NCBI GenBank assembly: GCA_009781425.1
Contig: WQYC01000001.1
Coordinates: 124,001-188,000 of the forward strand
Reading direction: 5' to 3'
From: Oscillospiraceae bacterium
GTDB taxonomy: Bacteria; Bacillota; Clostridia; Oscillospirales; Ruminococcaceae
DNA length: 64,000 bases
Numbering within the stretch: position 1 is the stretch's first letter; each line of letters starts with the position of its first letter. The translations under genes and the position numbers were made by a program. A model generated the notes under the pieces. The model had not been told where the DNA came from. It did not search any database and saw nothing but the letters and a program-made list of their open reading frames with translations. Shown here in pieces: positions 59,091 through 61,254 of the stretch.

Positions 59091-60452
59091 CTATAATAAT
59101 AATGCTGTTGCTAACGCGAAAAATACTATAAGTGACAAAGCGTCAACAATTGTGGTAATCAAAGGTGCCGCCATAACAGCAGGGTCAATTTTGCATTTCT
59201 TTGCAATTATAGGAAGAATTCCGCCGACAAGATTCGCAACCACTACTGTAAAAAACAACGTAAAGCTGACCGTCGCTGAAATTCTTATTATATCTTCGCT
59301 GTATTCCGAATGTCCCCGAAAGGTAATCCAAACCCTAACGAAGTTTACAACAGATAAGCCAAGCCCCACTAAAAGCCCCGTCCGCATTTCTTTCCAGACG
59401 ACCTTGAAAAAGTCGCGCGGAGTGATTTCCATTAGTGCCATGCCGCGGATAACCATTGTCGCGCTCTGGCTACCGGAGTTTCCTCCTGTGTCCATGAGCA
59501 TTGGTATGAATGTTCCGAGAAGCGGTAAAGCCAACATCGCTTCTTCATATTTTCCTATAATACCTCCGGTAATCATAGCCGCAGCCATCAGCACAAACAG
59601 CCAAACCACACGGTTCTTAGCAAGGAGAACAGGGTGAGTTTTTAAGTACGGCTTGTCCGACGGCAGAATCGCCGCCATCTTTTGGAAGTCTTCCGTGACC
59701 TCTTCTTCAATAACGTCGGCAATGTCGTCAATGGTGATAATCCCGACTAAACGGTTCTCCATGTCAACAACCGGAATACTCAAAAGGTCGTACTTATTTA
59801 CCTTGTGCGCGACAAGCTCTCGGTCTTCCAGCGTTTCCGCCGTGATGAGGTTCGTATCGTCCATTATGTCGCCGATGATTTCGTCGCGCTCGGCAAGCAT
59901 GAGCCTTTTCGCGCTTACAACGCCGACGAGCCTGCGCTCCGAATCGGTGACATAGCAGGTGTAAATCGTTTCCTTGTCAGTGCCTGTTCTGCGGATTCGC
60001 GAGAACGCCTCACGCACTGTCATTTCACTTTTGAGGTCAACGTACTCAACAGTCATTATGCTTCCCGCGCTGTCCTCGGGATATTTCAAGAGCCTGTTAA
60101 TCTCCTCGCGCGTTTCCGGCTTTGCTGTCGCTAAAACTTTCTTGGCGATTCCCGCGGGCATTTCTTCAATGAAGTCAACCGCGTCGTCAAGGAAAAGCTC
60201 TTCAACGATTGATTGAATTTCCGTCTCGCTGAAGATTCCGATTAATGATTCCTGTACATCGGGCGGAAGCTCAGCGAAAACCTCCGCTTCCATATCCTTT
60301 GGAAGCATACGGAAAATAAGCACCGCCTTGTCAACCTTTACGCTTTCGATTAACTGCGCGATGTCTGCACTGTTCTGCTCTATCAGCTCGCTCCGAAGCG
60401 CGTTGTACTGTCTTGTGTCGAGCATTTCTTCATAGATTTTGAAGTCTTTCAT
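59091..60452 (-). CDS. mgtE: magnesium transporter MgtE
   Basis: This 453-aa protein has the MgtE N-domain (DIAQLIESVKVDKAVLIFRM, LFLDDAVDFIEEMPAGIAKK), two CBS domains (SIMTVEYVDLKSEMTVREAF; VDMENRLVGIITIDDIADVI) and five C-terminal helices with MLMDTGGNSGSQSATMVIRG, the pore signature. MgtE is a Mg-gated channel. Its leader holds a peptide gene and a terminator directly upstream of the GAGGAG ribosome site. Regulation by Mg is therefore likely at transcription elongation, but without an M-box. Confidence 0.95.
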   Translation of the reverse strand: MKDFKIYEEMLDTRQYNALRSELIEQNSADIAQLIESVKVDKAVLIFRMLPKDMEAEVFAELPPDVQESLIGIFSETEIQSIVEELFLDDAVDFIEEMPAGIAKKVLATAKPETREEINRLLKYPEDSAGSIMTVEYVDLKSEMTVREAFSRIRRTGTDKETIYTCYVTDSERRLVGVVSAKRLMLAERDEIIGDIMDDTNLITAETLEDRELVAHKVNKYDLLSIPVVDMENRLVGIITIDDIADVIEEEVTEDFQKMAAILPSDKPYLKTHPVLLAKNRVVWLFVLMAAAMITGGIIGKYEEAMLALPLLGTFIPMLMDTGGNSGSQSATMVIRGMALMEITPRDFFKVVWKEMRTGLLVGLGLSVVNFVRVWITFRGHSEYSEDIIRISATVSFTLFFTVVVANLVGGILPIIAKKCKIDPAVMAAPLITTIVDALSLIVFFALATALLL

Positions 60453-60466
60453 ATTTTTCTCTCCTC

Positions 60467-60493
60467 AAAAAAAGCTGCGCACAAAAACGCAGC
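60467..60493 (-). terminator. attenuator terminator in the mgtE leader
   Basis: Minus strand GCTGCG TTTTTGTG CGCAGC then TTTTTTT, followed at once by the mgtE ribosome site. Being upstream of the gene on the same strand it can only act as an attenuator. Its 5' arm can instead pair with upstream segments: CAACGCTGC (60497-60489) with CGTTG (60518-60514) and GCAG (60536-60533). Confidence 0.85.
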
Positions 60494-60510
60494 GTTGCAT
60501 ATTGAAGAGC

Positions 60511-60600
60511 TTACAACGGCGGCGATTTTATACTGCTTATTATTTTTTCCGACCTTCTACTTCGGGGCGGCAAGGGGTCGTCAAAATTTATTGTACGCAT
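60511..60600 (-). CDS. Asp/Pro-rich leader peptide of mgtE (29 aa)
   Basis: The strong ribosome site AAGGAGGAG precedes ATG 60600. The peptide has FDDPLPPRSRR at residues 6-16 and ends SPPL (26-29). Runs of Asp/Glu and Pro near an N-terminus destabilise translating ribosomes when Mg is low; the enterobacterial MgtL peptide, which controls mgtA, has a comparable DP...PLPRRR stretch. Codons 28-29 (CCG TTG) overlap the CGTTG antiterminator arm, so a ribosome reaching the end would mask it. I infer a Mg-sensing attenuator; this is not proven. Confidence 0.75.
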   Translation of the reverse strand: MRTINFDDPLPPRSRRSEKIISSIKSPPL

Positions 60601-60644
60601 AAAATCTCCTCCTTGTATTTATCATGAAATTAATACTTATTTAC

Positions 60645-60673
60645 ATTATACATTTTTTCATTCATTTTGTCAA
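60645..60673 (-). promoter_or_regulatory. promoter of the mgtE leader
   Basis: Minus strand TTGACA (60673-60668), 17 bp, TATAAT (60650-60645): exact consensus. It lies about 45 bp before the leader peptide. Confidence 0.88.
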
Positions 60674-60684
60674 CAAATTTTGGC

Positions 60685-60747: not shown

Positions 60748-61254
60748 ATGACATATGAAAAAATCTTCGCCGATGTAAAAAAAGTTTATTCAAAAGCTGA
60801 CAAGAAAAAACTTGACGGTGATTTCGCATTTCAGTTTAACATATCCGGTGAGGGAGAAGGTAGCTTTTATGTAGCCTACAGAGGCGGTATTCTCGAGGTC
60901 GCCCCGTATGATTATGTAGACAGATGCGCCCTGCTGACCGCTTCAGGCGAGAATTTTATTAAGCTTGCAAACGCTAAGTTCACTCTTGCTGACGCCGTTG
61001 CGACCGGTCTCGTTGAGGTTCAAGGTAACTATGACCGCGCGATGGAATTAAACAAGTTAGCTCTCAGCGCACCCTTAAAAGACACTGCGAAAAAAACTAA
61101 AAAAGAAACCGCACCTAAAACAACAGCGGCAAAAAAACCTGCCGCCACTAAGAAGACAACTGCTCCCGCCGCAAAAGCACCAAGCAGTCCGACTCAAGAA
61201 AGTGCCGCAGTCAACGCAGTGAAATTAATTCATGAAGAGAAAAAGTTAGTATAA
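60748..61254 (+). CDS. SCP2 sterol-binding-domain protein with Lys/Ala/Pro tail
   Basis: This 168-aa protein has an SCP2 fold (DGDFAFQFNISGEGEGSFYV, then AKFTLADAVATGLVEVQGNY) of about 110 residues, then a low-complexity tail of K, A, P and T (such as KKPAATKKTTAPAAKAP) like histone-type tails, which could bind nucleic acid or anionic polymers. SCP2 domains bind lipids. A GAAAGGAAG site precedes ATG 60748. Function unknown. Confidence 0.8.
   Translation: MTYEKIFADVKKVYSKADKKKLDGDFAFQFNISGEGEGSFYVAYRGGILEVAPYDYVDRCALLTASGENFIKLANAKFTLADAVATGLVEVQGNYDRAMELNKLALSAPLKDTAKKTKKETAPKTTAAKKPAATKKTTAPAAKAPSSPTQESAAVNAVKLIHEEKKLV

Follow-up and report, generated by a model that had tools for sequence, protein, structure and literature searches.

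The M-box is an RNA that binds Mg2+ directly, and attenuators of the trp type combine a translated leader with an intrinsic terminator through a four-region logic (1:2, 2:3, 3:4). For the enterobacterial leaders mgtL and mgtQ, the accessible passages of published work report that translation is hindered by early acidic (and proline) residues and that expression of the Mg2+ transporter rises when the leader is translated incompletely (PMC11282234, PMC11552253, PMC8092293), with destabilization of the ribosome attributed to acidic residues, namely EPDP in mgtL and Asp2 and Glu5 in mgtQ (PMC11282234, PMC8092293). The mgtE motif, a candidate riboswitch, is reported only from Thioalkalivibrio in the accessible part of its source (PMC11109978). 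The open-licence PMC literature yielded no earlier description of a leader peptide before mgtE in Clostridia, and the passages available from three noncoding RNA surveys and from a mycobacterial M-box/uORF study (PMC12810186) mention none. Here we describe a leader region before mgtE in a 64,000-nucleotide stretch of DNA (the window) and compare it with other mgtE loci. An earlier note had read this region as an MgtL-like Mg2+ attenuator, a reading that our analysis partly supports.

Architecture and predicted folds of the mgtE leader region

The leader region and its target gene lie on the minus strand of the window and comprise the following features.

60668..60673, minus strand: −35 hexamer TTGACA, a consensus match
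60645..60650, minus strand: −10 hexamer TATAAT after a 17-nt spacer, a consensus match
60608..60614, minus strand: Shine–Dalgarno (SD) sequence AAGGAGG of the leader ORF, from the sequence
60597..60614, minus strand: switch region R1, the SD and start codon, AAGGAGGAGATTTTATGC, predicted by folding to pair with the end of the ORF
60511..60600, minus strand: leader ORF of 29 codons and a stop, MRTINFDDPLPPRSRRSEKIISSIKSPPL, from translation, its block being present in six genus genomes
60559..60582, minus strand: DDPLPPRS block, the proposed destabilizing or pausing stretch, delimited by conservation in the genus
60559..60564, minus strand: CGA-AGT, encoding Arg13-Ser14, the rarest Arg and the rarest Ser codon of the window's long ORFs
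60514..60533, minus strand: switch region R2, the end of the ORF, GTATAAAATCGCCGCCGTTG, for which folding predicts R1 or, alternatively, the 5′ arm and loop of the terminator as partner
60474..60497, minus strand: CAAC and the terminator stem-loop GCTGCG..CGCAGC, by folding also the antiterminator partner of R2
60467..60473, minus strand: T7 tract of the terminator, from the sequence
59091..60452, minus strand: mgtE, 453 amino acids, Mg2+ transporter family, with its ATG at 60452 (Pfam PF01769, PF03448 and PF00571; MgtE, MgtE_N and CBS)

The landmarks that had been placed ahead of mgtE are present. A sigma-70 promoter, TTGACA-17-TATAAT at 60673..60645 (minus strand), agrees with the consensus at 12/12 positions; the 29-codon ORF with FDDPLPPRSRR, described as well translated, is preceded by AAGGAGG; and an intrinsic terminator, consisting of the GCTGCG/CGCAGC hairpin and the expected seven T residues, occupies 60493..60467 (minus strand). 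Promoter-like and terminator-like matches taken alone are about as frequent as chance predicts (two of each found, against expectations of 1.6 and 1.3 for 1 kb), and it is their conservation in relatives that raises both calls above chance. At −52 kcal/mol, the fold of the leader RNA is more stable than those of all 200 dinucleotide shuffles, which give −36.7 ± 3.7 (z −4.1). The statement that the window lacks an M-box also held: no Rfam family, M-box RF00380 included, reached its gathering score there, every match at E up to 10 was below gathering, and the same search returned M-boxes at other mgtE loci. The divergent gene at window positions 60748-61254 (plus strand) gives an SCP-2 (sterol transfer) match at E 3.5e-6, and its tail is rich in Lys, Ala, Thr and Pro; a start region resembling that of this gene also lies upstream in locus L019.

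MFE folds of the six genus leaders change with the position of the ribosome. With no ribosome, the R1:R2 helix and the terminator form in 6/6; with a ribosome at the stop codon, the terminator forms without the antiterminator in 6/6; and with a ribosome paused at CGAAGT, R2 pairs with the 5′ arm and loop of the terminator, giving the antiterminator, again in 6/6. When the start is occupied, the antiterminator appears in five of the six, the exception being L137. Because the terminator loop of these leaders (TTTTATG or TTTTGTG) resembles R1, R2 has two competing partners. The antiterminator arm proposed in the earlier note, with its CGTTG:CAACG pairing to the terminator, is present but is not confined to codons 28-29; it spans codons 23-29 (60533-60514) and is also predicted to pair with the leader's own SD and start and with the terminator loop. 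A small SD-led ORF followed by mutually exclusive antiterminator and terminator, as modelled here, would have the design of a translated-leader transcription attenuator.

Across the six genus sequences, from which the tested helices were themselves drawn, so that the scores are support and not proof, 94% of cells are paired over the 11 pairs of R1:R2 (at most 47% when slid by 1-3 columns) and 98% over the eight pairs of R2:terminator (at most 77% when slid likewise). The alternative stems are kept in relatives, but the covariation that the earlier note had proposed as a check is weak. In both long switch helices, the pairs are invariant, changed on one side or broken, with no two-sided changes among the six sequences, and column shuffles match the observed pairing in 167/500 trials for R1:R2 and 500/500 for R2:terminator. 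The terminator stem (88% paired) does have two pairs with two-sided changes, and its pairing is matched by 12/500 column shuffles.

Leaders before mgtE in the genus and across the Clostridia

MgtE matches at E ≤ 1e-60 occur in 13 of the 71 genomes of the window's genus, and we surveyed the 420 nt upstream of mgtE in all 13. Six genomes (G000, G012, G348, G328, G017 and G020) carry the block DDPLPPRS, EDPLPPRS, EDPIPPRS or DDPLPSRS followed by a terminator, one (G010; locus L002) carries the variant EEPLPRG without an evident terminator, and six have no such leader within the 420 nt. The conserved Asp/Pro peptide, proposed in the earlier note as a check in relatives, is thus found in five of the 12 remaining genus genomes in which mgtE was matched, in addition to the one variant. 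A genus pattern derived from the six known leaders recovered those six from the 71 genomes and zero additional copies. Transporter and leader alike have a scattered distribution in the genus, only 13/71 genomes having the MgtE match.

Over the 8-codon block, pairwise comparison of the six leaders gives a pS of 0.27 and a pN of 0.07 (pN/pS 0.27); the leader ORF is kept as a coding sequence, as expected of translated-leader attenuators. CGA AGT is invariant across the six, while other third positions vary. Near the C terminus, GCATAAAATCG or a near-copy reads I-K in five leaders and H-K-I-V one frame over in G017, which suggests that in this part of the ORF the RNA is conserved rather than the peptide.

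Similar leaders precede mgtE well beyond the genus. Among 129 mgtE upstream regions, whose loci were brought in by MgtE homology alone, 58 contain an SD-preceded uORF whose second residue is Asp or Glu (62/176 uORFs), compared with 2/129 in an opposite-strand control (2/48 uORFs). Outside the genus, such a uORF is present in 56/125 mgtE upstream regions (loci with <480 nt upstream being left out in going from 129 to 125), and it precedes 4/54 same-locus control genes with an upstream intergenic stretch and 20/229 of all control genes. These counts repeat the main acidic-residue-2 test without codon-based choice of leaders. For the selection of leaders proper, identical loci were merged beforehand (170 to 158); Asp or Glu stands at position 2 in 78 of the 89 chosen leaders, a feature that the selection itself scored. 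The peptides include MDAGSS..VPRS, MDAGG..GRS, MEGRSRKM, MEPGSKRSPDPD, EPDPLPSPDP, SDSSVPGRS and MDSGPLP, and their shared position, start and codons suggest that the leaders form one family by descent.

Pattern searches place such leaders before MgtE in further genomes. The order-wide pattern (295 genomes) gave 21 matches, of which 19 share the strand of MgtE and precede it, one is at a contig end and one is without a start codon; 19/20 of those with an ATG or GTG start precede MgtE. Because the reversed pattern matched 16 times in the same genomes, the number of matches is close to chance and the evidence lies in their position before MgtE; at least five of the 19 (L015, L117, L119, L121 and L135) were known before the pattern was written. 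The class-wide pattern (391 genomes) gave 13 matches (four when reversed), nine before MgtE and four not, two of the latter with ATG or GTG, so that 9/11 matches with such a start precede MgtE; eight of the nine are new and come from genomes outside the window's order. All three matches of the MDSGPLP pattern (196 genomes; none when reversed) lie before MgtE, two of them new and one already known. The genus, order-wide and MDSGPLP patterns were written from leaders that had already been read, some in the same genomes.

We rejected accessibility of the mgtE SD as a family-wide read-out, since simple folding gave no consistent difference over 31 uORFs (mean unpaired 0.26 versus 0.23; three up, four down), a set that includes the six genus uORFs and leaves out L115, at a contig end, as well as L057 and L108. 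In L031, GGCACAAA in the leader ORF (GGCACA in L032) is the complement of TTTGTGCC, which immediately precedes the mgtE SD; this complementarity could form an SD switch, to which the simple accessibility test lends no support.

Rfam scans of 100 mgtE-locus records, comprising all 80 named loci and 20 hand-picked unnamed ones, detected M-boxes in 12 records, or 11 distinct loci, L059 and L184 being one locus. A leader lies between the M-box and mgtE in six of these 11, and L060 is a possible seventh.

L046, 1644-1817: M-box and leader ORF in series before mgtE; MgtE match at 2001
L053, 1649-1806: the same arrangement; MgtE match at 2001
L059, L082 and L083: the same arrangement; MgtE match at 2001
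L184 (the same locus as L059) and L185: the same arrangement; MgtE match at about 1636

Leaders are not enriched at M-boxes (5/10 named M-box loci versus 31/70 other named loci), and we rejected co-occurrence as enrichment; it indicates only that leaders can share an mRNA with a Mg2+ riboswitch, and the lack of enrichment makes us slightly less confident of the mechanism as a whole. An M-box and a leader in series may represent two candidate Mg2+ controls in tandem. Given the role of the transporter and the presence of leaders on M-box mRNAs, Mg2+ is the likeliest signal for the leader.

The CGA-AGT signature, a proposed mechanism and its rivals

CGAAGTA occurs in 29/131 mgtE upstream regions, compared with 2.0 in simulated sequence (L115 included; L057 and L108, with <70 nt upstream, left out). 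Where uORFs encode Pro/Gly-Arg-Ser, the last two residues are written CGA-AGT in 32/38 cases, and CGA is used for 57/368 other uORF Arg residues (L115, L057 and L108 left out); within the chosen leaders, CGAAGT is in frame 28/29 times. SD-preceded small ORFs with in-frame CGA-AGT number 35 within 520 nt before MgtE versus six elsewhere (1.32 Mb of strand, L001-L142). Among the 26 window ORFs, found mechanically, that reach 300 codons, no Arg codon is used less often than CGA (6.4%) and no Ser codon less often than AGT (6.8%); 0/20 of their Arg-Ser pairs are written CGA-AGT. The sole candidate reader of CGA is tRNA-Arg(ACG), from a scan of 30 of the 34 tRNA matches; its A34 would be inosine, as is established for tRNA-Arg(ACG).

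Among uORFs chosen for acidic residue 2 alone, AGT makes up 45% of Ser and CGA 36% of Arg codons, compared with 22% and 25% in other uORFs. CGA-AGT itself is present in 18/62 acidic-2 uORFs and also in 18/114 others, and its frequency in both groups indicates that the codon pair and acidic residue 2 are not tied. One set of codon counts used leaders for which AGT codons and an acidic second residue had been among the selection criteria, with near-identical ones removed (89 to 76). Two readings of CGA-AGT remain, a slow codon pair and an RNA element. The signature goes unmentioned in the literature passages on ribosome destabilization available to us.

We propose that the window leader is a transcription attenuator of mgtE that senses Mg2+ through destabilization of the ribosome on the leader peptide, a mechanism that, taken as a whole, we consider probable with considerable room for doubt. 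Ribosomes would load on the strong SD and translate the acidic, proline-containing FDDPLPP and then the rare codons CGA-AGT. Smooth translation, presumably when Mg2+ suffices, would bring the ribosome to the stop codon, where it would cover R2 and let the terminator form before mgtE. A pause or fall-off at DDPLPPRS, presumably at low Mg2+, would leave R2 free while initiating ribosomes hold R1; R2 could then capture the 5′ arm and loop of the terminator, allowing RNA polymerase to read into mgtE. Without initiation, R1 would pair with R2, the SD would be hidden and the terminator would form again. Plain drop-off without new initiation would also yield R1:R2 and favour the terminator; the scheme therefore calls for a ribosome that pauses or re-initiates. 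To the observed anatomy, conservation, association with mgtE and in silico mutual exclusion of the folds, this scheme would add Mg2+ as the signal, destabilization as the sensor and the direction of control; that the ribosome may sense Mg2+ at the acidic, proline-containing stretch is suggested by analogy with enterobacterial mgtL and mgtQ.

CGAAGTA might instead act as RNA, and the peptide might matter little: pairing with TACTTCC farther downstream would occupy a sequence that, left free, could cover the mgtE SD. Downstream of 81 leaders, TACTTC is found in 11 and ACTTCC in 14, where 1.0 and 1.4 were expected, and TACTTCC lies 36-52 nt before the mgtE start in 11 loci (L098, L153, L154, L164-L169, L177 and L178). 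However, a single genus contributes six of these 11 loci; the window's genus keeps CGAAGT but yielded no copy of the complement; and CGAAGT is in frame in 28 of 29 cases. We regard this account as unlikely, if worth keeping in mind. TACTTCC is complementary to GGAAGTA and, for the most part, to CGAAGTA in the leader ORF; it is also partly complementary to the mgtE SD, and the loci that carry it could hold a translational version of the switch. A leaky constitutive terminator accompanied by an incidental small ORF would suit promoter-like and terminator-like matches that are, as such, at chance level, but it is hard to reconcile with the conserved block (pN/pS 0.27) or with the 35 CGA-AGT small ORFs before MgtE against six elsewhere (L001-L142), and we give it very little credence.

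Aminoacyl-tRNA attenuation, in which the leader would report a shortage of charged tRNA-Pro or of CGA-reading tRNA-Arg and not Mg2+, could draw on the five Pro codons of the leader, three in the block and two near the end, and on the use of CGA, the rarest Arg codon, which only a tRNA-Arg with the anticodon ACG could read (30 of 34 tRNA genes scanned). In the accessible part of PMC8092293, a response to charged tRNA-Pro is reported for Salmonella mgtP. The window leader nevertheless has no run of a single codon or of one amino acid, the number and position of Pro vary in the family, with some leaders having none before CGA (MEGRS, MDGRS), and the target gene is a Mg2+ transporter; this explanation seems to us rather improbable. 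The same short relatives bear on nascent-chain arrest, by which a PPRS-like sequence would stall in the exit tunnel, perhaps sensing membrane insertion of MgtE. The block is conserved and 12 residues precede Arg13 in the window leader, but CGA-AGT forms codons 4-5 in MEGRS and MDGRS, very short for arrest in the tunnel, and the signature lies in codons as well as residues, so that we think arrest improbable. Attenuation by Mg2+-dependent ribosome destabilization remains our preferred reading.

Comparison with known systems

Extended to the class, this reading would mean that Clostridia possess a widespread, undescribed family of Mg2+-sensing mgtE leader peptides, standing alone or behind an M-box, in which an acidic (or acidic-proline) chain and the slow CGA-AGT are the sensor and low Mg2+ leads to pausing or fall-off. 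The family would have arisen independently of enterobacterial mgtL, which also has CGA after Pro-Leu-Pro. We hold this wider proposal tentatively and rate it somewhat short of probable. If true, Mg2+ sensing via ribosome stability is convergent, operates across the Clostridia for an unrelated transporter and in places shares an mRNA with a riboswitch, and is no enterobacterial speciality tied to P-type ATPases. Leader-peptide attenuation itself is known; what would be new is an MgtL-like peptide that serves a different family of transporters, works through an intrinsic terminator and bears a codon signature. The leader family would also provide a large set of natural variants in which to study what residues and codons cause a ribosome to fall off.

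With trp-type attenuators, the window leader shares the four-region logic, a translated leader and an intrinsic terminator, but not a run of cognate amino-acid codons. The M-box (ykoK, RF00380) likewise precedes mgtE, in 11 distinct loci, and can stand before the same kind of leader; unlike the window leader, it is a direct Mg2+-binding RNA, and it is absent from the window.

mgtQ of Salmonella mgtCBRU is described, in the accessible part of PMC8092293, as having a strong SD, Asp2 and mutually exclusive stem-loops that overlap the ORF. Its position-2 acidic residue is shared by 78/89 chosen leaders, in whose selection this feature was scored. mgtQ differs in having eight codons, lying between cistrons and acting on mgtB translation, whereas in the window leader the acidic residues are Asp7-Asp8 and a transcription terminator follows.

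The likeness to mgtL of mgtA (Escherichia coli and Salmonella) is broader. Both are short, well-initiated ORFs leading a Mg2+ importer gene, and both have early acidic and Pro residues and then Arg, an MgtL-type trait for the leader of a Mg2+ transporter; this acidic-proline-basic arrangement is a likeness of residue order, the peptides being too short for homology statistics. In E. coli mgtL, CGA directly follows Pro-Leu-Pro (CCT CTC CCT CGA CGG AGA), and in the window it follows the Pro run. The E. coli Arg-Arg-Arg after Pro-Leu-Pro (L143, 2932-2985) is written CGA CGG AGA, and codon choice may matter for mgtL too. Full translation favours termination in both, as reported for mgtL and as modelled for the window leader. 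mgtL belongs to another phylum, serves a P-type ATPase and uses Rho, whereas in the window an intrinsic terminator with T7 stands in place of Rho-dependent termination, the target is MgtE and an R1:R2 helix is predicted to form over the leader's own SD.
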